From: Aridibaculum aurantiacum
Lineage (GTDB): Bacteria; Bacteroidota; Bacteroidia; Chitinophagales; Chitinophagaceae
Direction: 5' to 3'
NCBI RefSeq assembly: GCF_017355875.1
Contig: NZ_JAFEWC010000001.1
Location: 1,364,001-1,428,000, forward strand
DNA length: 64,000 nucleotides
The position numbers and the translations under genes are program-made. Positions 28,288-43,065 of this stretch are shown here, one piece after another; the first letter of the stretch is position 1, and every line of letters begins with the position of its first letter. The notes under the pieces are model-generated. The model saw only the letters and a program-made list of their open reading frames with translations, did no database searches and was not told where the DNA came from.

Positions 28288-29088
28288 ATGGAAAGAGTGG
28301 GTGTTTTGATAAATAAATTGCAGGAGCAGTTAGCTCAAAAGGCTAGTGTAGAGAACATGATTATCACTGCTCAAATGCTTCATACTGAATTGTTGCAGCA
28401 TAAAAATAATGGTGGTATACCTACTTCAAAAGTGGCTGTTATGGTCCCTTCAGTAGTGTCTGTACCAGCACCTGTTTCCACTCCTGAAATATCGCATAAC
28501 GATCACGATCATTATAAGCCGGTTATAAAGCCTGAGCCTGAACCAGCGCCTATACCTGAACCAATGCCAGAGCCTGTTGTGCCTGCTTCAGAGCCTACAC
28601 CTTCACCAACGCCAAAGCCAGAACCTGAGCCAATTCCTCAATATCTTGAAGGCCGTCCATGGGATGAAATTTTCAATCTTGGCAGCGATACCAAACACTG
28701 GCATTCAGAAGCTGTGATAGAAGCACCAACGCTTGCACACCAGGAAAAGATCATCTATGAGTTGAATGATACTATGGGTGGCGAAGAACATTCGCTGAAT
28801 GACAAATTGAAGGAACAAAAGGCTGAAATGGTGAGCATGTTGCAGGAAACTCCTATTAGGGATCTGAAAAAAGCCATCAGCATCAATGACCGCCATCGCT
28901 TTATAAATGAACTGTTTCGCGGCGACGAAACCATGTACGAACGTAGCATCAAAACCATCAACGGTTTCAATATTTATGCTGAAGCTGAATATTGGATCCA
29001 GCGCGAACTAAAAGTGAAACTAGGTTGGAATACAACTCTTGACCTGGTTAAGACCTTTGATCAATTGGTAAGAAGGCGTTTCTCGTAA
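28288..29088 (+). CDS. Pro/Glu-rich protein of unknown function conserved in Bacteroidota
   Basis: 266 residues. The N-terminus (1-35) is a short amphipathic helix (VLINKLQEQLAQKASVEN); residues 70-120 are a low-complexity linker of PEPEP/PTPKPEP repeats; residues 170-266 form a conserved helical domain with ISINDRHRFINELFRGDETMYERS and AEYWIQRELKVKLGW. I recall that C-terminal block as common to unnamed Bacteroidota proteins, but know no function. No signal peptide, so it is probably cytoplasmic. It overlaps the convergent waaA gene by 28 bases. Confidence 0.75.
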   Translation: MERVGVLINKLQEQLAQKASVENMIITAQMLHTELLQHKNNGGIPTSKVAVMVPSVVSVPAPVSTPEISHNDHDHYKPVIKPEPEPAPIPEPMPEPVVPASEPTPSPTPKPEPEPIPQYLEGRPWDEIFNLGSDTKHWHSEAVIEAPTLAHQEKIIYELNDTMGGEEHSLNDKLKEQKAEMVSMLQETPIRDLKKAISINDRHRFINELFRGDETMYERSIKTINGFNIYAEAEYWIQRELKVKLGWNTTLDLVKTFDQLVRRRFS

Positions 29089-30311
29089 ATAAGATCTAAG
29101 ATTGCTTTAGTGGCACCTTGCTTCTGCCTTACATAGTCATATGCTGCCTTGCTTGCTTGCTGGTAGCTACTGCCTTTTTGAAACATAGGATTGAACACCG
29201 TCTCAAATTCTGAAGCAGAACTCACAGTGAAGGCTCCGCCAACTTCTATTAATTCTACCGCCTCTATATATTTATTATATACAGGCCCATAAACTACAGG
29301 CTTGCCATACACTGCTGCTTCCAACACATTGTGCACGCCTTCTTCTGCAAAGCCGCCACCTATAAAGCAAACGGTGCCATAGCGGTACAACCTGCTCAGC
29401 ATTCCTACATTATCAATGATAAGAATATTAAAAGTGCCTGCTCGTCCTTTTACATATTCTGAGTATAGAATGGAATTAGTATACACCCTTTTACATTCAT
29501 TTATCCTTTCCACGCTGATATCGTGTGGCGCAATGATGAACTTTTTGGCTGGGTGTGCATTTACAAAATGAAAAAGCTCTTTGTCGTCGGCAGACCATGT
29601 ACTTCCTGCTACAATTACATCTGCGTTTTGGCAAAAAGCTTCTATTTCAGTGATTGGTTCAAAATTTTCTGCAATGGCAATTACTCTATCAAATCTTGTA
29701 TCACCAGTAATTAATACATTTTCTTTTAGGTTAATGTCATGCAGCAGTTGTTTTGACTCATCGTTTTGCACCAATATATAATCGAAAAAAGATAGCATCT
29801 TTTTGTGCAAGCTGCCATACCATTTGAAAAACGGTTGGTCTTGCCTAAAGATGCCTGACACCAGCAATAGCGGGATATTCCTTTTGTTTACCTCGTGCAG
29901 GTAGTGAAACCAGAATTCATATTTTATAAAGATGACGATGGAAGGTTTGGCAATATCCAGAAATGATCTTGCGTTTGATGCTGTGTCGGCAGGCAGGTAG
30001 TAGATGAAATCTGCTCCAGCATAATCTTTTCTTATCTCGTAACCCGAAGGAGAAAAGAATGTAAGGAGTATTTTGTAGGCAGGATAACGTTGTTTGATTT
30101 CCTCCAAAACAGGGCGGCCTTGTTCAAATTCGCCAAGTGAAGCGCAATGAAACCATGCGATCTTGTCAGCAGGAAGAATGTCAGCTTGCATCCTTTTAAG
30201 CAGGTTCTTACGTCCTAGTAACCATAATCGCGCCTTCTTGTTGAAAGGGGCAATGACGGTAATAGAAAGGATGTAAAGCCTGATGAATAACCGGTATAAC
30301 AACAAATGCAC
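29061..30311 (-). CDS. waaA: 3-deoxy-D-manno-octulosonic acid (Kdo) transferase
   Basis: About 416 residues from the GTG start chosen at 30311. The N-terminus (HLLLYRLFIRLYILSI) matches the membrane anchor of WaaA, followed by the GT30 motif CASLGEFEQGRPVLEEIK with the catalytic Glu, and the C-terminal GT-B domain with CFIGGGFAEEGVHNVLEAAVYGKPVVYGP. It adds Kdo to lipid A precursor at the inner membrane. The frame is open to an ATG at 30428, but that start would overlap the divergent aminotransferase gene and swallow a candidate promoter, and the extra 39 residues do not look like WaaA. Confidence 0.9.
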   Translation of the reverse strand: MHLLLYRLFIRLYILSITVIAPFNKKARLWLLGRKNLLKRMQADILPADKIAWFHCASLGEFEQGRPVLEEIKQRYPAYKILLTFFSPSGYEIRKDYAGADFIYYLPADTASNARSFLDIAKPSIVIFIKYEFWFHYLHEVNKRNIPLLLVSGIFRQDQPFFKWYGSLHKKMLSFFDYILVQNDESKQLLHDINLKENVLITGDTRFDRVIAIAENFEPITEIEAFCQNADVIVAGSTWSADDKELFHFVNAHPAKKFIIAPHDISVERINECKRVYTNSILYSEYVKGRAGTFNILIIDNVGMLSRLYRYGTVCFIGGGFAEEGVHNVLEAAVYGKPVVYGPVYNKYIEAVELIEVGGAFTVSSASEFETVFNPMFQKGSSYQQASKAAYDYVRQKQGATKAILDLIYEKRLLTN

Positions 30312-30326
30312 GACTGATTTTTCGGA

Positions 30327-30334
30327 CAAAAGTA
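30327..30334 (-). promoter_or_regulatory. Candidate -7 box for waaA
   Basis: The minus strand reads TACTTTTG (TAnnTTTG), 15 bases before the GTG start codon. It supports the shorter waaA start. Confidence 0.42.
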
Positions 30335-30382
30335 ACCGTTCCTCACTAAGTAAATTGTAAGTAGAGGAAAGGCCAATTAACG

Positions 30383-30390
30383 TAGATTTG
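30383..30390 (+). promoter_or_regulatory. Candidate -7 box for the nucleotide-sugar operon
   Basis: TAGATTTG (TAnnTTTG) lies 23 bases before the DegT-family start codon. No strong -33 box is seen. Confidence 0.42.
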
Positions 30391-30413
30391 CCGCCATTGA
30401 AAAAGAAAATAAT

Positions 30414-31544
30414 ATGAGGCCGATCCAAATGGTGGATACCAAAACACAGTATTTACATATTAAAGATGAAGTAGATGCAGGCATTCAAGCTGTTCTTGAC
30501 AGTGCTGCATACATCAATGGAAAGGCTGTACATGACTTTGCCAATAATCTATCAAGTTATTTAGGTGTAAAACATACCATTACCTGTGCTAATGGAACTG
30601 ATGCTCTCCAGATCGCTTTGATGGCGCTTGGGCTTCAGCCTGGTGATGAAGTTATTACTCCTTCTTTTACTTATATAGCTACCACTGAAGTAGTTGCACT
30701 GCTAAGGCTAACACCTGTATTTGTAGAAGTAGACAAGCAATCTTTTTGTATTGATCCTGCGGCTATAGAAAAAGCTATCACGCCAAAGACAAAAGCGATT
30801 GTACCGGTGCATCTGTATGGCCAGGCAGCCAATATGGAAGAGATCATGGCAATTGCTGAAAAACATGGATTGCCTGTAATTGAGGATAATGCGCAAGCAA
30901 TAGGATGTGATTATACTTTTTCTGATGGTACAGTAAAGAAAACAGGTACAATAGGAACTATAGGATGTACTTCCTTTTATCCATCAAAAAATTTGGGTGC
31001 TTATGGAGATGGTGGAGCCATGTTTACCAATGATGATGCCCTGGCTGAAAAGCTACGCATGATCGCCAACCATGGCCAAAAGGTGAGATACTACCATGAA
31101 ATGGTGGGTTGCAATTCAAGATTGGACTCTATACAAGCTGCCATATTGGATGTGAAGCTGAAAAGGCTGGATCAATATTCGGCAGCGCGTCAAAAAGTTG
31201 CAGATTATTACAACAATGCGTTTGCTGAGGTTAAGGAAATAACCACGCCGTATGTTGCTCCATATACTGATCACGTTTACCATCAATATACTATGTTGGT
31301 AGAAGGTATAGACAGAGATGCACTGCATACATATCTTGGAGAACATAAGATTCCATCCATGATCTATTACCCGGTGCCAGCTCATCGTCAAAAGATGTTT
31401 GACGCTTTCGGTTCTGCTAATACCGAAATGCCAATTACAGATTGGCTGACAGACAGGGTGCTATCGTTGCCGGTTCATACAGAACTTGATGAGGCACAAT
31501 TAGAACACATCGTACAACACGTTGTAAACTTTATAAAAGCGTAA
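30414..31544 (+). CDS. DegT/DnrJ/EryC1-family sugar aminotransferase
   Basis: 376 residues. PLP-dependent sugar aminotransferase with GTDALQIALMALG, the EDNAQAIG loop, and the Schiff-base Lys192 in FYPSKNLGAYGDGG; C-terminal MIYYPVPAHRQKMF contacts substrate. The closest known relatives are WbpE/WlbC-type enzymes that aminate C3 of UDP-2-acetamido-3-keto-glucuronate. It begins a plus-strand run of five sugar-nucleotide genes spaced by 0-9 bases. Possible starts at 30414 and 30429. Confidence 0.92.
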   Translation: MRPIQMVDTKTQYLHIKDEVDAGIQAVLDSAAYINGKAVHDFANNLSSYLGVKHTITCANGTDALQIALMALGLQPGDEVITPSFTYIATTEVVALLRLTPVFVEVDKQSFCIDPAAIEKAITPKTKAIVPVHLYGQAANMEEIMAIAEKHGLPVIEDNAQAIGCDYTFSDGTVKKTGTIGTIGCTSFYPSKNLGAYGDGGAMFTNDDALAEKLRMIANHGQKVRYYHEMVGCNSRLDSIQAAILDVKLKRLDQYSAARQKVADYYNNAFAEVKEITTPYVAPYTDHVYHQYTMLVEGIDRDALHTYLGEHKIPSMIYYPVPAHRQKMFDAFGSANTEMPITDWLTDRVLSLPVHTELDEAQLEHIVQHVVNFIKA

Positions 31545-31553
31545 AATCAAATT

Positions 31554-32912
31554 ATGAAAATTGCAGTAGTAGGAACGGGCTATGTAGGCCTGGTTACCGG
31601 GACTTGTTTTGCTGAAACGGGCAACTATGTTTGCTGCGTAGACATTGACCAGCGTAAGATAGAGAAGCTGAGCAATGGCCAGATCACCATCTTCGAACCA
31701 GGACTGGAGAAACTTTTCCAGCGAAACCTGAAAGAAGAGCGCCTGAAGTTTACAACCAATCTTGCTGAAGGTATAGAAGATGCAGAAGTTATCTTCCTTG
31801 CGCTGCCTACACCTCCGGGTGAAGATGGAAGCGCAGACCTAAAGTATATCCTGAAAGTGGCTGATGATCTTGGTCATCTGATGAAGGATTACAAGGTGAT
31901 CGTGGACAAGAGCACCGTTCCTGTTGGTACTTCTGAAAAAGTAACAAAGGCTATCGCAGCCAATGCTACTGTAGAATTTGACGTTGTTAGTAATCCTGAG
32001 TTCCTGCGCGAAGGCGTAGCGGTTGATGATTTCATGAAGCCTGACCGCGTAGTGATCGGTACTACTTCAGAGCGTGCAAAGAAGATCATGAACGAACTAT
32101 ATGCACCATTCGTTCGCCAGGGAAATCCTATCATCTTCATGGATGAAGCATCTGCCGAGCTTACAAAATATGCAGCCAACTCATTCCTTGCAACCAAGAT
32201 CACATTCATGAACGAGATCGCCCGTCTGTGCGAACTGGTAGGTGCTGATGTAGACCTGGTACGCAAGGGCATTGGCAGCGATGAAAGGATCGGCAAACGC
32301 TTCCTGTTCCCTGGTATCGGTTACGGTGGTAGCTGTTTCCCTAAAGATGTAAAAGCACTGGTGAAATCATCAGAAGATGTGAACTACGACTTTAGAATAT
32401 TGAAAGCTGTTGAAGATGTGAACGAAGACCAGAAGCTATACCTGTTACCATACATCAAAGAGTTCTTTGGTGGAGAATTAGCTGGTAAAACAATCGCCAT
32501 CTGGGGACTAGCTTTCAAACCAAATACAGATGATATTCGTGAAGCACCAGCCTTAGTAATGATAGATGAATTGCTGGCTGCTGGTTGCACTATCAAAACT
32601 TTCGATCCTGAAGCAATGAAGAATGTGAAAGAGATCTATGGTGAGAAGATAGAATTTAGCGAAGGTCAGTACGAAGCGCTTGAAGGTGCAGATGCACTGA
32701 TCGTTGCTACTGAGTGGGCAGAGTTCCGCACACCGGATTTTGAAAAGATGGAAACAAGACTGAAGTCAAAAGTTGTTTTTGACGGAAGGAATGTATTTGA
32801 TCTTGAGAAAATGGAAGAACTGGGATACTACTATAAGAGCATTGGACGCAGAACCGTAAATGAAAATCTTTCATTGGCAACAAAAGATACAGCAGCCCTA
32901 ACTAACGCCTAA
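31554..32912 (+). CDS. ugd: UDP-glucose 6-dehydrogenase
   Basis: 452 residues. The NAD-binding motif GTGYVGLVTG is at residues 7-16, the catalytic Cys261 in GGSCFPKDVKAL, and the central substrate motif with Lys and Asn (ELTKYAANSFLATKI). It oxidises UDP-glucose to UDP-glucuronate. The UDP-xylose synthase gene 6 bases downstream would use the product, so the two probably act in sequence. Confidence 0.95.
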   Translation: MKIAVVGTGYVGLVTGTCFAETGNYVCCVDIDQRKIEKLSNGQITIFEPGLEKLFQRNLKEERLKFTTNLAEGIEDAEVIFLALPTPPGEDGSADLKYILKVADDLGHLMKDYKVIVDKSTVPVGTSEKVTKAIAANATVEFDVVSNPEFLREGVAVDDFMKPDRVVIGTTSERAKKIMNELYAPFVRQGNPIIFMDEASAELTKYAANSFLATKITFMNEIARLCELVGADVDLVRKGIGSDERIGKRFLFPGIGYGGSCFPKDVKALVKSSEDVNYDFRILKAVEDVNEDQKLYLLPYIKEFFGGELAGKTIAIWGLAFKPNTDDIREAPALVMIDELLAAGCTIKTFDPEAMKNVKEIYGEKIEFSEGQYEALEGADALIVATEWAEFRTPDFEKMETRLKSKVVFDGRNVFDLEKMEELGYYYKSIGRRTVNENLSLATKDTAALTNA

Positions 32913-32918
32913 TAAAAA

Positions 32919-33899
32919 ATGTCTAAAAAAAGAGTTTTAATAACCGGGGCCGCAGGCTTTCTTGGCTCCCATTTATGCGACAGGTTTATCAAAGAAGGTT
33001 TCCATGTTATTGGAATGGACAACCTGATAACCGGCGACCTGAAGAACATTGAACATTTGTTCAAATTGGAAGATTTTGAGTTTTACAATCATGATGTTTC
33101 CAAGTTTATTCATGTTCCTGGTCAATTGGATTATATACTTCACTTTGCTTCTCCTGCCAGTCCAATTGATTATCTAAAAATACCTATCCAAACATTGAAG
33201 GTTGGTTCCCTTGGAACACACAACTGTTTGGGTCTTGCACGCGAAAAGAAAGCAAGAATACTGGTAGCATCTACCAGTGAGATCTACGGTGATCCATTGG
33301 TGCATCCGCAAGATGAAGAGTATTGGGGTAATGTAAATCCTGTAGGTCCGCGTGGTGTATACGATGAAGCCAAGCGTTTCCAGGAAGCAATGACCATGGC
33401 ATATCATACATTCCATGGCGTAGAAACAAGGATCGTTAGGATATTCAATACCTATGGTCCGCGCATGCGACTAAACGATGGCCGTGCATTACCTGCGTTC
33501 ATTGGCCAGGCATTGCGTGGTGAAGATCTTACCGTATTTGGTGATGGTTCACAAACACGTTCTTTCTGTTATGTTGATGATCTTATTGAAGGTATTTACC
33601 GTTTGCTGATGAGCGATTACGCACAGCCTGTAAACGTTGGAAATCCTGTAGAGATTACCTTGAAAGAATTTGCGGAAGAGGTACAGAAACTAACCGGTAC
33701 TGATGCTAAGATCGTTTACAAACCACTACCGGTTGATGATCCGAAGCAGCGTCGTCCAAATATCACCAAAGCAAAAGAACTGCTTGGATGGGAACCTAAG
33801 GTTGCACGTGAAGAAGGTTTGAAGATCACTTACGAATATTTCAAATCTTTGCCTAAAGAAGAATTGTACAAGCAACCCAAAGAGTTCAAGTCTAATTAA
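32919..33899 (+). CDS. UDP-glucuronate decarboxylase (UDP-xylose synthase)
   Basis: 326 residues, extended SDR family. [14 protein letters not shown] carries the NAD-binding GxxGxxG, the catalytic pair Tyr148/Lys152 is in YDEAK, and [16 protein letters not shown] is typical of the UXS branch. It converts UDP-glucuronate to UDP-xylose. It ends in a TAATG overlap with the next gene. Confidence 0.94.
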
Positions 33900-35188
33900 T
33901 GTATTCTGCACTTGTTAATAAACAAACCAAACTAGCTGTTATAGGTTTAGGCTATGTAGGCCTGCCTATAGCAGTTGAGTTTGCTCGTCATGTATCTGTT
34001 ATTGGTTTCGATATAAACCACAAGCGTGTGGAGTTGATGCGGCAACACATTGACCCTAGCGGCGAATTAGATAAAGAAGAATTTGAAGGATGCGACATCA
34101 CCTTTACTTCCAACCCGGAAGATCTTGGTGCCGCATCTTTTTTTATTGTAGCTGTTCCTACACCCGTTGATCCCCACAATGTACCTGACCTGGTGCCGGT
34201 AAAAAGAGCGTCAGAGACAATAGCCAAAGTGCTGAAAAAAGGTGATTACATTGTTTTTGAATCTACTGTTTACCCCGGCTGTACAGAGGAAGATTGTTTA
34301 CCTATCATAGAAAGCGTCAGCGGCCTTAAAGTAGGAGAGGATTTCAAGCTTGGATATTCACCAGAAAGGATAAACCCGGGTGATAAGCAACATACACTAA
34401 CCTCCATCATCAAAGTAGTTTCAGGAAGTGATGATGAGGCTGCCGAAGTGATAGCTAAAACATACGAACTAGTGGTGAAGGCCGGTGTACATCGTGCATC
34501 ATCCATCAAGGTAGCTGAAGCAGCCAAAATAATCGAGAACACGCAGCGCGACGTGAACATTGCGCTGATGAACGAGTTGTCGATCATCTTCGATCGGATG
34601 GGCATCAATACGTACGAAGTATTGGAAGCAGCAGGCACTAAGTGGAACTTCCTACGCTTTCAGCCAGGACTTGTTGGCGGCCACTGCATAGGCGTAGATC
34701 CTTATTACCTTACTTACAAAGCCGCCGAACTTGGTTTCAATTCTCGTGTTATCCTTTCAGGAAGGTATATCAACGACAACATGGGAAACTATGTTTCGAA
34801 GAAGATATTGCAACACGTAATTGCTACCAGTGAAAATGTAAAGGCAGCCAAGATACTTTTCATGGGCGCCACCTTCAAAGAGAATGTGAGCGATATACGA
34901 AATAGTAAAGTAATGGATGTGGTGGAAACGCTACGTACATACCATCTACAAGTATTTGTTACCGATCCATATGCTGATAAAGAGCAACTGCAGGAAGAAT
35001 ACAACTGCTGCGTGATCAGCGAACTGGATGATGATTACGATGTGATTATAGTTAGTGTACCACACGATCCTTATCGTGCATTTGATGATGATTACTTTGT
35101 CTCCATCACCAAGCCTACTGCGCTTATAGCAGATCTGAAAGGCATTTATAGAAATAAAATTACAAGCCGTAAATACTGGAGTTTATAA
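33899..35188 (+). CDS. Second nucleotide-sugar dehydrogenase (WecC/TviB/WbpA type)
   Basis: 429 residues. GLGYVGLPIAVEFA near residue 20 binds NAD; catalytic Cys263 is in GGHCIGVDPYYL, the form found in UDP-N-acetylglucosamine/mannosamine 6-dehydrogenases (TviB, WbpA, WecC) and not in UDP-glucose dehydrogenases. It probably makes a UDP-HexNAc uronic acid, which would be the precursor for the DegT aminotransferase at the head of the operon, although the WbpB-type 3-oxidase is missing here. Start and stop codons overlap by one base with both neighbours. Confidence 0.92.
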   Translation: MYSALVNKQTKLAVIGLGYVGLPIAVEFARHVSVIGFDINHKRVELMRQHIDPSGELDKEEFEGCDITFTSNPEDLGAASFFIVAVPTPVDPHNVPDLVPVKRASETIAKVLKKGDYIVFESTVYPGCTEEDCLPIIESVSGLKVGEDFKLGYSPERINPGDKQHTLTSIIKVVSGSDDEAAEVIAKTYELVVKAGVHRASSIKVAEAAKIIENTQRDVNIALMNELSIIFDRMGINTYEVLEAAGTKWNFLRFQPGLVGGHCIGVDPYYLTYKAAELGFNSRVILSGRYINDNMGNYVSKKILQHVIATSENVKAAKILFMGATFKENVSDIRNSKVMDVVETLRTYHLQVFVTDPYADKEQLQEEYNCCVISELDDDYDVIIVSVPHDPYRAFDDDYFVSITKPTALIADLKGIYRNKITSRKYWSL

Positions 35189-36057
35189 TGAATCCGATCA
35201 TTCTTGTTGCAGGAAAAAATGGACAGCTAGGAAGCGAGTTACAACAACTTGAACCTGCTTTTCCTCAATTCATTTTCCAGCTTACAGATCGCTCAACTCT
35301 TGACATCACCGATAAGCAACAGGTTGATGAATACTTTGCAAAATATAAAATTTCTTTTTGCATAAATGCTGCAGCATATACTGCTGTTGATAAAGCTGAG
35401 GCTGAAAAAGAGACTGCATTGTTTGTAAATGAACAAGCAGTTGCCAATCTTGCCAGTGCATGCAAACAGCATAATGCACGTCTTATTCATGTTTCTACTG
35501 ATTATGTTTTCGATGGCAATGCCACCATTCCTTATACTGAAGATCACCCGGTGAGTCCAGTGAATTTTTACGGTGAAACCAAACTCAAAGGAGAGCAGGC
35601 TGCCATGCAGGATCCTTCCTCTATTGTTATACGTACCAGTTGGGTGTATAGCCACTTTGGAAACAATTTTGTAAAGACCATGCTTCGCCTGATGCGTGAC
35701 AGAGATAGCCTGAACGTAGTGAATGACCAGGTTGGATCTCCTACCAATGCTGCTGATCTTGCTAAAGCTATCCTCGACATCATTGTGAAACTGCAAAATC
35801 ATCCAAGTCAACCGGGTGGCATTTATCATTATTCTAATGAAGGAGTCATAAGCTGGTTCCAATTTGCCGAAGCAATAGCCTCTTATTCTGGTACTTCATG
35901 TAAAGTAGGTGCCATACCGTCATCTGCTTATCCCACACCTGCCAAGCGGCCTGCTTATTCTGTATTGAATAAGGAGAAAATCAAAAATGATTTCCAGGTA
36001 CAGGTGCCTCATTGGAAAGAGAGCCTCGACAAATTTTTTAAGCATATGGCTCATTAG
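35188..36057 (+). CDS. rfbD: dTDP-4-dehydrorhamnose reductase
   Basis: 289 residues. GKNGQLGSELQQL gives the nucleotide-binding loop, STDYVFDG the conserved strand, and Tyr128/Lys132 in YGETK the catalytic pair of the extended SDR fold. It reduces dTDP-4-keto-L-rhamnose with NAD(P)H, the last step of dTDP-L-rhamnose synthesis. rfbA, rfbB and rfbC are not in the window. The overlap TAATG with the upstream gene implies coupled translation. Confidence 0.92.
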   Translation: MNPIILVAGKNGQLGSELQQLEPAFPQFIFQLTDRSTLDITDKQQVDEYFAKYKISFCINAAAYTAVDKAEAEKETALFVNEQAVANLASACKQHNARLIHVSTDYVFDGNATIPYTEDHPVSPVNFYGETKLKGEQAAMQDPSSIVIRTSWVYSHFGNNFVKTMLRLMRDRDSLNVVNDQVGSPTNAADLAKAILDIIVKLQNHPSQPGGIYHYSNEGVISWFQFAEAIASYSGTSCKVGAIPSSAYPTPAKRPAYSVLNKEKIKNDFQVQVPHWKESLDKFFKHMAH

Positions 36058-36151
36058 CGTATATTGATAATGTTTTGGAACAGTTGTTGTCTTCACTCCG
36101 AAACATTCCCTAACCGGCAGTATCACAAATGATACTGAAATCAATTGCTTA

Positions 36152-37807
36152 ATGAGTCAGGTTATAGAATTTTTCCAAAAACTACTAGACACTGCCGATT
36201 GGCCACCACGGTGGCATTGCGGTAACTGGACTGACTTTCATGGCTGGATGTATATCATCAGCGACCTGATGATCTGGGCGGCTTATTTTGCTATTCCTCT
36301 TATCATCCTTCGGTATATCACCCGCAGAAGGGATATACGCTTTCATAAAATATATTTCCTTTTTGCTGGGTTTATTCTTGCGTGTGGCTCTACACATTTG
36401 TTAGATGCAATTATTTTTTGGTTTCCTGCTTATAGGTTGAGTGCATTAGTAAGAGTACTAACTGCCACCATTAGCTGGCTTACTGTTTTCTCCTTAATCA
36501 AACTTTTGCCTACCGCTTTCTCACTGCGCACTGCAGAAGAACTTGAATCAGAGATAGACCAAAGACAAAAGGCCGAGGCTGAATTGCAGGTAAAAAATAA
36601 CCTGCTAAACGAAGCACAGGATATTGCCAAGATGGGATACTGGCAGTGGAATGTAGCAGACAACAAGGTGATCTGGAGCAATAGCTTGTATAAGATATAC
36701 GGCGTACAACCAGTAAATAATGGTGGACTGTCTTATGAAGAATTTCTCAGTATGGTGCATCCTGATGATAGGGAATATGTATCAGCCAACATCAAAGAGG
36801 CTTTCGAGAAAAAAGAATTCAAAGAATATTTTCATCGGATAGTGCTTCCGGATGGTTCTGTAAAAACAATGCTTTCTAAAGGCGAGATAATGCTGGACGC
36901 TAACAACCAGGTGCACATGATGATGGGTACAGGGCAGGATGTAACTGAAATGAAGCGAACGGAGCATGAGCTTGTTATCAAAACACAGGAACTGCAGGAG
37001 ACAAATATGGAACTGCAGAATTTTGCTTACATAGCTTCGCATGACCTGCAAGAGCCATTGCGCAAGATCCATACGTTTACGAACATGCTTCACAAGGGTT
37101 ACGACCACCTGATTGACGAGAGGGGCAAAACCTTCATGCAAAAGATCATGCAGTCATCGAGCCGCATGCAAAAGTTGATAGATGACATCCTGTATTTCTC
37201 ACAGTTCAATTCCAGTAAATATTCTTTTGAACAGGTAGATATGGAACAGGTACTGCAGGAAGTAAAAACAGATATTGAGCTTACCATCGAGGATACCAAA
37301 GCCGTTATACAATCAGATAAACTTCCTGTGATAGAAGCTAATTATACACAGGTGCGGCAGTTGTTTCAAAACCTACTTACGAATGCACTAAAGTTTAGGA
37401 AGGAAGGCGTAACACCAGAGATCAAGATCACCTGTAAGTACATGCAAGGCAACATGGTATATGAAGACCTGGTAAACACTAGTCCTGCCAATAACCAATT
37501 GTTGATGAGTCCACTGTTCTGGCAACACCAGAAGTTTGTACAAGTGAAAGTGATAGATAATGGAATTGGATTTGAAAGTGAATATGCTGAGAAGATCTTC
37601 GGGATTTTCCAAAGATTACACGGCAAAAGTGCCTATGAAGGAACCGGTATTGGTTTAGCTATCTGTAAAAAAATAGTTGAAAATCATCATGGCGTTATCA
37701 AAGCCGAAGCGGTGCCAGGAGAAGGTGCAACATTTACTATTACTCTTCCTGTATCGCAGCAAAATTATAGGGCAGGCGGCTCTGCTAAAGCCAAAGAAGG
37801 TGCCTGA
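36152..37807 (+). CDS. Histidine kinase with an ethylene-receptor (ETR1-type) sensor domain
   Basis: 551 residues. Residues 36-120 form three membrane helices with the full ethylene-binding signature of plant ETR1: Asp38, Tyr45, Ile48, Pro49, Ile75, Cys78 and His82 all sit at the ETR1 positions plus 13 (copper ligands in CGSTH). The helix after it keeps VLTA but has Arg where ETR1 has Lys. A PAS domain follows (about 155-270), then HisKA with phospho-acceptor His297 in SHDLQEPLRKI, and HATPase_c with N411 (NLLTNALKF), DNGIGF and EGTGIGLAI. There is no receiver domain and no response regulator nearby. It would sense ethylene or copper at the inner membrane and relay phosphate to an unknown partner. 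It lies 94 bases after rfbD and overlaps the convergent ATP-grasp gene by 43 bases. Confidence 0.92.
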   Translation: MSQVIEFFQKLLDTADWPPRWHCGNWTDFHGWMYIISDLMIWAAYFAIPLIILRYITRRRDIRFHKIYFLFAGFILACGSTHLLDAIIFWFPAYRLSALVRVLTATISWLTVFSLIKLLPTAFSLRTAEELESEIDQRQKAEAELQVKNNLLNEAQDIAKMGYWQWNVADNKVIWSNSLYKIYGVQPVNNGGLSYEEFLSMVHPDDREYVSANIKEAFEKKEFKEYFHRIVLPDGSVKTMLSKGEIMLDANNQVHMMMGTGQDVTEMKRTEHELVIKTQELQETNMELQNFAYIASHDLQEPLRKIHTFTNMLHKGYDHLIDERGKTFMQKIMQSSSRMQKLIDDILYFSQFNSSKYSFEQVDMEQVLQEVKTDIELTIEDTKAVIQSDKLPVIEANYTQVRQLFQNLLTNALKFRKEGVTPEIKITCKYMQGNMVYEDLVNTSPANNQLLMSPLFWQHQKFVQVKVIDNGIGFESEYAEKIFGIFQRLHGKSAYEGTGIGLAICKKIVENHHGVIKAEAVPGEGATFTITLPVSQQNYRAGGSAKAKEGA

Positions 37808-38877
37808 TCTTCTTCTAATTGTTCAGTAAGAACCTGCGCTTCTAAAACTTTTGAATAAGCCGCATCATCTTTAAACATCTTCACGCCATCTTTGAAGCTC
37901 ATAAAGGGTGAGATCTGCTTATTCTGCATGCTGATTTTGTAAAGGTATTTCCAATGGCGAATGATCTCTTTCCAGGCAAAGAAAATGCTGTGATTGGAAT
38001 CATACATATGAGTAGGCTCACTGCCTGCACCATTCAGTTCAATGATAGAAAAATTCTTTCCATGTCTCAGGTCTTCCCAGTTACTGAATTTGATGTCCAT
38101 TCTGCCATAGTAAAAGCCATCTATTTGTTGGCAAACTTTATCAATAGAAGCTTCTAACTGTTCATCAATAACCGCACTGGCATCAATGAACTTTGCTCCA
38201 CGGCAATGGTTGCCATAAGGCACCAGTACCTTCTTTTCTCCTTTTGGAAGTATGTTGTGCAATTGGGCTCCAAATCGCTCTTCTAACACATCTAATTGCA
38301 GTAGGTATCGTTGGTCTTTTTCAAGCAGTTGCCGGATAGTAGAAACGCCATCCCCTTTTATAGTAAGAAATTCTTTAGCTACTATTCCTGTTACATGTCC
38401 TTTCTTTTCATTAGGTAAACGGTAGTAAAATATACCTGCTTCCATTTCATAAGGTATGTATTCCTGTACCAGGTAATCAAGTTGAAGTGTGGTAGCATAT
38501 TCCACTACATCTTGCTTGTTCAGTAATTTTTTTACAGCGCGGCCGCGGCCTCCAATATCAGGTTTGCCTACCAGCGGAAATTTGAAATCTGCATCTTTAA
38601 TTTTTTGCCACACTTCATTAGCTGGTGTTCCTGCTTTTACAAAAAAAGTTCGTGGGTAGTATTCTTGTGGAATGAGATCATAAATCTTCTTTTTCGACTC
38701 CATTAAAAAGCCACCTGTTTCTATGGTAGGATTGGACGCAGTAAAAAAGAAGAAGGACCTGGCTTTTAAACATAACCAAAACCAGTATGGATATACCGGT
38801 GCATAAACTACATGGAACGGCCAGTATTCCCAGTTTAATAACCGGATGAAAAAAGGACGGTTGAGGATTTTTCTCAT
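37765..38877 (-). CDS. ATP-grasp-fold ligase-like protein of unknown substrate
   Basis: 370 residues from the start chosen (MRKILNRPFF); an upstream ATG at 38913 is possible. The ATP-grasp fold is seen in FPLVGKPDIGGRGRAVKKL (about 120-138, phosphate loop), LVQEYIPYEMEAGIFYYR, and the metal-binding end GRMDIKFSNWEDL...FSIIELNGAGSEPTHMYD. It resembles D-alanine-D-alanine-ligase-like proteins annotated only as ATP-grasp. The N-terminal 60 residues are hydrophobic and aromatic. Proximity to cyanophycin synthetase, another ATP-grasp enzyme, is suggestive but tRNA-Gln lies between. Confidence 0.78.
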   Translation of the reverse strand: MRKILNRPFFIRLLNWEYWPFHVVYAPVYPYWFWLCLKARSFFFFTASNPTIETGGFLMESKKKIYDLIPQEYYPRTFFVKAGTPANEVWQKIKDADFKFPLVGKPDIGGRGRAVKKLLNKQDVVEYATTLQLDYLVQEYIPYEMEAGIFYYRLPNEKKGHVTGIVAKEFLTIKGDGVSTIRQLLEKDQRYLLQLDVLEERFGAQLHNILPKGEKKVLVPYGNHCRGAKFIDASAVIDEQLEASIDKVCQQIDGFYYGRMDIKFSNWEDLRHGKNFSIIELNGAGSEPTHMYDSNHSIFFAWKEIIRHWKYLYKISMQNKQISPFMSFKDGVKMFKDDAAYSKVLEAQVLTEQLEEDQAPSLALAEPPAL

Positions 38878-39080
38878 GTACTGAAGGTAAAATTGATAAT
38901 GCTGCAATAGCAAACGACATACTTAAAAAACTTTACCAGCACAATTGGAGTGATCATATTGCCAAAATCAGATTATTACACTGTAAAAGAAATTGAAACT
39001 ATTGAAGGCTAAAGTTATAGCTGAACAAATGCGATGGGAGGGTAGCGGTAGAAGAGGAGTAAAAGCCAGCGTATGAAAAC

Positions 39081-39312: not shown

Positions 39313-41934
39313 TTAAATCTGTTCCTCCTTCTCTTTCAGTCCTTTTATCAGGCTCAAAGCTTCGGCTACCACATCTGCCATAATGGTGATGATAGAACCT
39401 TTCTTTGCATTGTTGTAAGCATGCATGATCGCCTCTTTTTCATTGATGATCACTTCCACAGGTATATCCTGTTTTTTCGTTTCATTGATACCCTGTATCA
39501 GCAAGCCTACTATTTCCTCGGCTGTGCGACCACGCAAGTGCTTGTCTTGCCTGATGATTATCTCGTCAAAGTATTTGCCAGAGATCCTTCCAATTTCAAT
39601 GATGTCTGCATCTCTTCGGTCGCCGGTGCCAGATATGATACCAACTTTCGGCGTACCGTCCAGTTTGTTCACAAAGTCGCAGAGCAATTGCAATCCTGCA
39701 GGGTTGTGCGCATAATCCACCAGGAACTGGAAATTCTTGAACTGAAATAAATTAAGTCTTCCCGGTGTTTGTACTGCTGAAGGGATGAAAGTTTGCAGCG
39801 CTAGCCGTAAGTCTTCAATGGTGATGTTGCGGTATAGGTAAGTAGCCAATACTGCAGGCAATGTATTCATAATGTTGTGAACGGCTTTACCACCATAAGT
39901 AAGCGGAACATCTGTCACCTTCAATACGCGCAACTTCCAGCTGCCTTTCAAAATGGTGATGTAATTGTTCTCGAATACTGAGGCGATGCCACCATTCTTA
40001 CAATGTTCCTGGATACGAGGATTGTTTTCATCCATGCTAAAGAAGGCAACATTGCAGTCCAGACCTTCGTGCATTTTGTATACCAGGTCGTCATCTGCAT
40101 TCAATATGGCATATCCATGCGGGAAAACCGTTTCCGGTACCACCGCTTTTACCCGTGCCATTTTTTCGAGTGTATCAATACCACCCAATCCCATATGATC
40201 TGCACTAACATTGGTAACAATAGCAATGTCGCAATGCCTGAAAGCAAGACCGCTCCTTATTATCCCACCACGTGCACATTCAAGCACTGCAAAATCCACT
40301 GTAGGATCTTTTAAAACAAACTGTGCGCTTACAGGCCCTGTGCAATCGCCGGTCATCATTAGCTCGTTTTGAATATATACACCATCAGATGTAGTAAAGC
40401 CAACTTTGTAACCTGCATGCTTACATATATGTGCTGTAAGCCTGGTAGTGGTTGTTTTTCCGTTGGTACCTGTAATAGCTATTATAGGGATACGGCCATT
40501 GCTGCTCTTAGGAAAAAGCATATCTATTACTGGTTCGGCTACGTTGCGTGCCAGTCCTTCAGATGGCTCCACGTGCATTCTAAAGCCAGGCGCAGCATTT
40601 ACCTCCAGTACAGCTCCTCCATTTTGTGATATAGGTTCGCGCAGGTCTGGCGCCATGATGTCTATACCACAGATATCAAGTCCAATGATCTTTGAAATTC
40701 TTTCGGCCATGAAAATGTTAGAAGGATGCACTTCATCTGTTACATCTGTACTTGTACCTCCTGTACTCAGGTTGGCCGTAGGTTTCAGGTAAACTATTTC
40801 GTCTTTTGCAGGTATGCTATTCACCGTATAGCCTTTTTCATTCAGCATTTTCTCTGTGAACTGATCAACCACAATTTGTGTCAGCACTTTTTCGTGGCCA
40901 TATCCGCGGCGCGGATCACTGTTCACTACATCTATCAAATGTTGAATGGTGTGTTCACCATCACCAACTACATGGGCTGGTGTACGTAATGCTGCACATA
41001 TAAACTTGTGGTTTATAACAAGCAACCTAAAATCATAACCTACAATAAAATTTTCGCAAATAACACTGCGGCTATATACCTGTGCAGCTTCCAAAGCTTT
41101 AAGTGCCTGCTCCCAATCTAGTATATTGGTCGTGGCACCTTTGCCATGGTTGCCATCTATTGGTTTTAAAACAATGGGATAACCAATTTTGTCTATTGCA
41201 TCCTGTAAGCTTTCAGGATCGCGGACTATAGATCCTCTGGGAACAGGAATTTGTGCTGATTCAAGAAGGTTTTTGGTTTCTTCTTTATCGCCTGCTATAT
41301 CTACAGCTATGTTAGATGTGGTGCTTGCTATGGTAGCACGTATACGTTTTTGATGGATACCATAACCAAGTTGCACAAGGCTATGTTTGTTTAGCCTGAT
41401 AAAAGGAATGCCTCTTTGCGTTGCTACTTCCACTATACTTCCGGTTGAAGGACCAAGCCGCGTATTCTCTCTTATCTCGCGCAGTTCCTGTATATCTTTT
41501 TCCAGGTCATATTCCTGCCCATCTACCAGTGCCTGGCAAAAGCGTACAGAAGCTTTTGCAGTATAAACGCCTGCATCTTCTTCCATATAACTGAAAACAA
41601 CATGATATTCTCCTTCTTTACCTGTACTGCGAGTGCGGCCAAAACCGGTATCCATTCCAGCCAGGGTTTGCATTTCAAGCGCTACGTGTTCTATTACATG
41701 ACCCATCCATGTGCCCTCTTCCACACGATGAAAGAAACCGCCGGCAACACCTTCGCTACAGCGGTGAGTGTACAATGAAGGCATCATTTCGCGAAGCCTG
41801 TCAAGGAAACCATCGATCTTATTGGTAGGACGTTGTTCAAGTTCCTGGAGGTCAAGTTTCATTTGTATTAGCTTCGTCCGCCTGATGCTCCAGTAGTTAG
41901 GGCCACGCATCACTTTAATTTCAACGATCTTCAT
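39313..41934 (-). CDS. cphA: Cyanophycin synthetase
   Basis: 873 residues, typical for CphA1. Domain order: an N-terminal domain (1-200) with ARRTKLIQMKLDLQELEQ-type charged start, an ATP-grasp domain (about 205-470, PIDGNHGKGATTNI and GIDIMAPDLREP) that adds aspartate, and a Mur-ligase-like domain (from about 485, with the P-loop GTNGKTTTTRL) that adds arginine. It makes multi-L-arginyl-poly-L-aspartate as a nitrogen and carbon reserve in the cytoplasm. The cyanophycinase gene is divergent, 240 bases away. Confidence 0.95.
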   Translation of the reverse strand: MKIVEIKVMRGPNYWSIRRTKLIQMKLDLQELEQRPTNKIDGFLDRLREMMPSLYTHRCSEGVAGGFFHRVEEGTWMGHVIEHVALEMQTLAGMDTGFGRTRSTGKEGEYHVVFSYMEEDAGVYTAKASVRFCQALVDGQEYDLEKDIQELREIRENTRLGPSTGSIVEVATQRGIPFIRLNKHSLVQLGYGIHQKRIRATIASTTSNIAVDIAGDKEETKNLLESAQIPVPRGSIVRDPESLQDAIDKIGYPIVLKPIDGNHGKGATTNILDWEQALKALEAAQVYSRSVICENFIVGYDFRLLVINHKFICAALRTPAHVVGDGEHTIQHLIDVVNSDPRRGYGHEKVLTQIVVDQFTEKMLNEKGYTVNSIPAKDEIVYLKPTANLSTGGTSTDVTDEVHPSNIFMAERISKIIGLDICGIDIMAPDLREPISQNGGAVLEVNAAPGFRMHVEPSEGLARNVAEPVIDMLFPKSSNGRIPIIAITGTNGKTTTTRLTAHICKHAGYKVGFTTSDGVYIQNELMMTGDCTGPVSAQFVLKDPTVDFAVLECARGGIIRSGLAFRHCDIAIVTNVSADHMGLGGIDTLEKMARVKAVVPETVFPHGYAILNADDDLVYKMHEGLDCNVAFFSMDENNPRIQEHCKNGGIASVFENNYITILKGSWKLRVLKVTDVPLTYGGKAVHNIMNTLPAVLATYLYRNITIEDLRLALQTFIPSAVQTPGRLNLFQFKNFQFLVDYAHNPAGLQLLCDFVNKLDGTPKVGIISGTGDRRDADIIEIGRISGKYFDEIIIRQDKHLRGRTAEEIVGLLIQGINETKKQDIPVEVIINEKEAIMHAYNNAKKGSIITIMADVVAEALSLIKGLKEKEEQI

Positions 41935-42174: not shown

Positions 42175-43065
42175 ATGTCTTACCCAAAGGGAAAATTAAT
42201 AGCAATAGGAGGCGCTGAAGACAAGGGGACAAACCTGGAAAAAGGACTTATCAGCCGCAATAATCTCAATTTTTTTGAACTGGGCATTTTACGCCGCATA
42301 GTAGAAGAGGCTGGTGGATTAATGGCACGTATTGAAGTCATCACCACTGCTTCTATGATACCTTTTGAAGTTGGTAATAATTACCTGGAAGCATTTGGTC
42401 GCATTGGCTGTACCCATGTGGGATTGATGCATATACGCAACCGTGAAGATGTAAACAAGCCTGAATACCTGAAGCGAATAGAAGAATGTGATGCAGTAAT
42501 GTTTAGTGGTGGCAACCAGCTCAGGTTATCGGCCACTTTTGGCGGTACTAAATTCCTTCGCACTATTCTCCTTCGTTATCATAATGAAGAATTTGTAATC
42601 GCCGGTACATCGGCAGGCGCAATGGCTATGAGCAATACTATGATCTACGAAGGAGAAGCCAGCCGTGCGCATTTAAAGGGTGAAGTAAAAATAACCACCG
42701 GTCTTGCTTTCATGGATAACGTGATCTTCGACTCTCACTTTGAAAAACGTGGCCGTTTTGGAAGGCTGGCACAGGCTGTTGGTGCTAATCCTTCTGCTAT
42801 CGGTATCGGACTTGGAGAAGATACCGGCATGCTTATCACCGATGGAAATAAGATGGAAGCCATAGGCAGCGGAATGGTCATCATCATCGATGGTCATGGT
42901 ATCATGCATTCCAACATTGCCGATATTCCTGTAGGCAATCCCATTAGCATGGAAGGTTTGCAGGTTCACATTTGCGCCAAAGGCAATGGTTACTTAATTG
43001 ACGACAGGAAATTTGTAGAAAAAATGGGAGCAGTAACTACTCCCATTATGCAAGATGTTGAATAA
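42175..43065 (+). CDS. cphB: Cyanophycinase
   Basis: 296 residues, serine peptidase family S51. The nucleophile Ser146 is in AGTSAGAMAMSN; conserved flanks are SGGNQLRL (about 111-117), FDSHFEKRGRFGRLA with the active-site His, and GIGLGEDTGML. It splits cyanophycin to beta-Asp-Arg dipeptides. Together with the divergent cphA it makes a storage and mobilisation pair. No signal peptide, so it is the intracellular CphB type and not an extracellular CphE. Confidence 0.95.
   Translation: MSYPKGKLIAIGGAEDKGTNLEKGLISRNNLNFFELGILRRIVEEAGGLMARIEVITTASMIPFEVGNNYLEAFGRIGCTHVGLMHIRNREDVNKPEYLKRIEECDAVMFSGGNQLRLSATFGGTKFLRTILLRYHNEEFVIAGTSAGAMAMSNTMIYEGEASRAHLKGEVKITTGLAFMDNVIFDSHFEKRGRFGRLAQAVGANPSAIGIGLGEDTGMLITDGNKMEAIGSGMVIIIDGHGIMHSNIADIPVGNPISMEGLQVHICAKGNGYLIDDRKFVEKMGAVTTPIMQDVE

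Follow-up and report, generated by a model that had tools for sequence, protein, structure and literature searches.

Ethylene receptors of other bacteria change the cell surface and biofilm (PMC6682694, PMC11819568). SynEtr1 (slr1212) of Synechocystis couples an ethylene-binding domain to a histidine kinase, includes a light-sensing GAF domain, and has the response regulator slr1213 as its signaling partner (PMC6682694, PMC7700396). AzoEtr1 of Azospirillum brasilense binds ethylene through residues 1-130 (PMC11819568; PLoS Genet 2025), and consists of an N-terminal three-helix domain with seven ethylene-binding residues, one PAS domain, and one histidine kinase, with no receiver (PMC11819568). 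We scrutinized a 64,000-nucleotide stretch (hereafter the window) of the genome of Aridibaculum aurantiacum, a soil-type bacterium; it encodes a kinase that shares this domain layout and the seven residues with AzoEtr1. Unlike the 551-aa window kinase, which has no such neighbor, the 525-aa AzoEtr1 is followed by a 135-aa response regulator that overlaps its stop codon (PMC11819568); its host belongs to a different phylum. As in SynEtr1, the ethylene-binding-type domain feeds a histidine kinase, but the window kinase has neither the GAF domain nor the slr1213 partner. Plant ETR1 and ERS1 likewise possess all seven ethylene-binding residues; compared with these, the window kinase lacks the GAF and receiver domains and contains a PAS domain, and its N-terminus is of bacterial type, bearing the motif PRWxCGxW. 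A sequence-only reading of the window had presented SynEtr1 as the known studied bacterial case, which was overstated, given that AzoEtr1, with the same EBD-PAS-kinase layout, binds ethylene (PMC11819568).

The sensor kinase and its seven-residue site

The kinase gene and its parts lie in the window as follows.

36152..37807, + strand: ethylene-receptor-type sensor histidine kinase, 551 aa, start ATG (open reading frame; Pfam ETR1_N, PAS_3, HisKA, HATPase_c)
36239..36523, + strand: ETR1_N ethylene-binding-type domain, residues 30-124, three membrane helices (Pfam, E 3.3e-31; AlphaFold2)
36263..36298, + strand: helix 1 site residues Asp38, Tyr45, Ile48, and Pro49 (alignment with ETR1 and relatives)
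36374..36397, + strand: helix 2 site residues Ile75, Cys78, and His82, the Cys and His being predicted Cu(I) ligands (alignment)
36668..36931, + strand: PAS_3 domain, residues 173-260 (Pfam, 3.3e-14)
37013..37210, + strand: HisKA dimerisation domain, residues 288-353, with phospho-acceptor His297 (Pfam, 1.1e-9; H-box SHDLQEPL at 296-303)
37346..37756, + strand: HATPase_c domain, residues 399-535, with N, G1, F, and G2 boxes (Pfam, 1.6e-23; motifs)

The ETR1_N match scored 107.8 bits against a curated cut-off of 27, and no other membrane-sensor family was assigned to the sensor region. PAS_3, HisKA, and HATPase_c each exceeded their Pfam cut-offs, the catalytic motifs (His297 plus the N, G1, F, and G2 boxes) were complete, and a Pfam scan of all 551 aa detected no receiver domain, which bears out the PAS-HisKA-HATPase kinase without receiver proposed in the sequence-only reading.

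That reading had also listed seven site residues shared with ETR1, and all are present at the numbers it gave: in our alignment, D38, Y45, I48, P49, I75, C78, and H82 each lie 13 positions beyond their ETR1 counterparts D25, Y32, I35, P36, I62, C65, and H69. The Pfam ETR1_N match is independent of the ETR1 row in this alignment. Across 33 HMM-found homologues, the seven site columns averaged 87% identity to the window protein, versus 54% domain-wide, and only 2 of 100,000 random seven-column sets equalled the conservation of the site, a match far beyond chance. Ile75, Cys78, and His82 were invariant in a 46-sequence alignment. A pattern scan of genome contigs recovered 170 relatives, the best 80 of which came from Chitinophagaceae, Mucilaginibacter, Hymenobacter, and kin; among these best 80, the same seven letters occurred exactly in 67. 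Arg101 of the window kinase aligns with ETR1 Lys91, as had been noted for the position before VLTA, and Arg is usual among relatives, occurring in 77 of the same best 80.

The AlphaFold2 model of the sensor, built from the 46-sequence alignment (pLDDT 92.4, pTM 0.80), placed helices at residues 2-9, 28-58, 65-88, and 94-124, the last three being the membrane helices, a confident prediction of the three-helix region first read at the N-terminus. Sequence and fold comparison of the sensor domain with solved structures returned no meaningful match; no solved fold competes with ETR1_N, and fold comparison hence speaks neither way. Alignment and profile evidence support the window protein as a true ETR1_N-domain histidine kinase with a complete seven-residue site.

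Proposed signaling, partners, and distribution

The window kinase is probably a bacterial ETR1-type membrane ethylene receptor, with a predicted Cu(I)/ethylene site and a signal passing via PAS to His297 and an unlinked regulator. Its domain order, site residues, intact kinase motifs, predicted fold, and lack of a linked regulator are the directly established part of this explanation. By analogy with ETR1, SynEtr1, and AzoEtr1, from which we infer the involvement of copper and ethylene, Cu(I) would be held by Cys78 and His82 within the three helices and would bind ethylene. The PAS domain would then relay the ethylene-induced change to the kinase and thereby alter how His297 is phosphorylated, if the signal runs in the presumed direction. 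Because no regulator is linked to the window kinase, the phosphate would be handed to a response regulator whose gene lies at another site in the genome. The likely output, judging from Synechocystis and Azospirillum, would be surface adhesion or biofilm.

Co-conservation of a response regulator, raised in the sequence-only reading, was found among relatives but does not extend to the window kinase. A single-domain response regulator directly followed the kinase in 41 of 78 related loci, 35 of these regulators lying within 100 bp and 13 overlapping the kinase gene, which is the gene order of AzoEtr1 (PMC11819568). One such neighbor, scanned by Pfam, was classified as Response_reg. Single-domain regulators overlapped or adjoined the receptor kinase gene in L030, L045, L082, L084, L087, L090-L092, L095, L099, L106, and others. 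Regulators in this position are likely dedicated partners. Beside the window kinase and in its nearest relatives, a linked single-domain response regulator was absent; in the kinase tree, the window protein fell within an 18-member set, only one sub-branch of which had the regulator. The partner regulator from locus L057 gave 55 receiver-domain matches in the genome of the window, the best of them only 40% identical, and thus pointed to no particular orphan partner. The family offers testable kinases both with and without a linked regulator.

Among Chitinophagaceae genomes, 24 of 149 in one sample and 70 of 396 in another carried ETR1_N (16-18%), as did 21 of 395 sampled Bacteroidota genomes (5%). 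The family is thus common in Bacteroidota and the window kinase is not rare, being a good but ordinary further member of a known receptor family. Through it, Bacteroidota, common in soil and on roots, join the bacteria with apparently complete ethylene receptors. Two loci with weak matches and in-frame stops (L024, L025) and one with a broken frame (L112) were left out. A plasmid search with the window kinase returned only distant PAS and kinase matches, all below 60% identity. In Flavipsychrobacter stenotrophus (L062, L209), the receptor frame ended after 203 aa with other + strand frames directly after it, reflecting either a broken gene or a sequencing error.

The upstream nucleotide-sugar cluster

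Immediately upstream of the kinase lie the following.

30414..36057, + strand: nucleotide-sugar cluster of degT, ugd, uxs, an NDP-sugar dehydrogenase (TviB/WbpA-like), and rmlD, a neighbor that is probably transcribed separately from the kinase (the last two assigned by Pfam/NCBIfam, the others named from sequence)
36058..36151, + strand: gap between rmlD and the kinase with two hairpins and no T-run, a possible end of the sugar operon (folding of 36050-36151, z-score -3.6; sequence)

The order kdtA-degT-ugd-uxs-dehydrogenase-(rfbC)-rmlD, at 29061-36057 of the window, was strongly conserved across Chitinophagaceae. The kdtA-like gene is divergent at the left end, and rfbC is a usual member of the cluster; the window has no rfbC between the dehydrogenase gene and rmlD. 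One gap hairpin has 11-base arms and the other is an 8-pair stem shortly 5' of the start codon. Scanning this gap for sigma-70 promoters gave nothing useful; Bacteroidota promoters are of another type.

The sequence-only reading had offered this cluster as a candidate output by position only. The adjacency now reaches beyond one genome, as six genomes (the window, L031, L039, L042, L046, and L080) have the sugar cluster 5' of the kinase, with rmlD directly adjoining it in the same orientation; most of them differ in the genes downstream of the kinase. If the kinase were a dedicated regulator of the nucleotide-sugar operon on the same transcript, ethylene would control how much activated sugar (UDP-uronic acids, UDP-xylose, and dTDP-rhamnose) is available for surface polysaccharide. 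Both this recurrent adjacency amid varying downstream genes and the effects of other bacterial receptors on cell surface and biofilm (PMC6682694, PMC11819568) are consistent with such a role, but we consider it doubtful. All 10 rmlD regions read in other genomes of the family, including G099 of the same genus, had the cluster in full or in large part but lacked the kinase, and most kinases of the family sit elsewhere. Of eight further genomes sampled from the genus, three carry a different, shorter ETR1_N kinase (~370-380 aa) elsewhere in the genome, away from the cluster. Strong hairpins with T-runs, resembling terminators, separate rmlD from the kinase in L039 and L042 (the latter read from sequence, since the simple scan misses loops longer than 8), and the gap in the window is itself strongly folded. 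We therefore take the adjacency to be real and lineage-specific, and, as the cluster occurs without the kinase and hairpins separate them in two relatives, membership of the kinase in the sugar operon is unlikely.

On the other side of the kinase, a weak ATP-grasp-like protein is encoded at 37765-38913, near the nitrogen storage genes for cyanophycin synthetase (39313-41934, - strand) and cyanophycinase (42175-43065, + strand), which stand side by side close to the kinase.

Ligand of the sensor and a His-less branch

Many homologues retain ETR1_N without the His, which shows that an ETR1_N match is in itself no proof of ethylene binding or sensing; the window protein lies on the intact side. 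A Chitinophagaceae class of ~320-358 aa has ETR1_N, PAS, and HisKA and no HATPase_c, with Tyr, Phe, or Gln at the position of His82 and with Cys78 also lost in some members. Relatives losing His82 also lose the ATPase domain, as expected if the site and the kinase work together, in a tabulation where some long proteins were truncated at the locus end or escaped the motif (L016, for example, has HATPase_c by Pfam). Because most of the short proteins keeping the His were fragments, the argument is based on the His-less class and on feoB as its neighbor. A gene reading as feoB lay directly upstream of 14 of the 21 His-less proteins versus 0 of 106 with His, counts that are not independent, as the His-less genomes were drawn from few genera. 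Five of six feoB-like neighbors scanned exceeded the NCBIfam feoB curated cut-off, the sixth, at a locus end, falling just under it. L192, a short protein that keeps the His, had no feoB upstream. Within the paper collection searched, no paper joined FeoB, ethylene binding, and a histidine kinase.

The His-less, feoB-linked proteins are possibly an iron-linked offshoot of the ethylene-receptor domain. Tentatively, the domain may have split in two within Chitinophagaceae, into copper-site kinases and a His-less, ATPase-less feoB branch serving ferrous-iron uptake. Were this true, the fold would serve generally as a membrane sensor built around a metal site, with ethylene sensing as one use. The branch provides a natural control, and possibly a second use of the same fold.

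The feoB link of this related branch also bears on the ligand of the window kinase, which might bind Cu(I) yet sense copper itself, CO, another alkene, or redox state, the kinase then reporting metal or gas status. Cys and His do fix copper more directly than ethylene. We nevertheless regard this as improbable: the window kinase retains all seven ETR1 ethylene-binding residues, even the ones that do not ligate copper, and ethylene is bound by, or elicits a response from, the two best-studied bacterial proteins with a site of this kind (PMC11819568, PMC6682694). That the sensor domain is a degenerate relic without ligand, the PAS domain being the real input, is very improbable: the site has been lost in a whole branch of ETR1_N proteins, but in the window protein no site residue is missing and the kinase is intact, and its seven letters recur in 67 of the best 80 of 170 pattern-found relatives.

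The short His-less proteins adjoining feoB were those of L008, L020, L022, L023, L190, L191, and L193-L200. In several His-less loci, IscA- and IscU-like genes were found on the other side.
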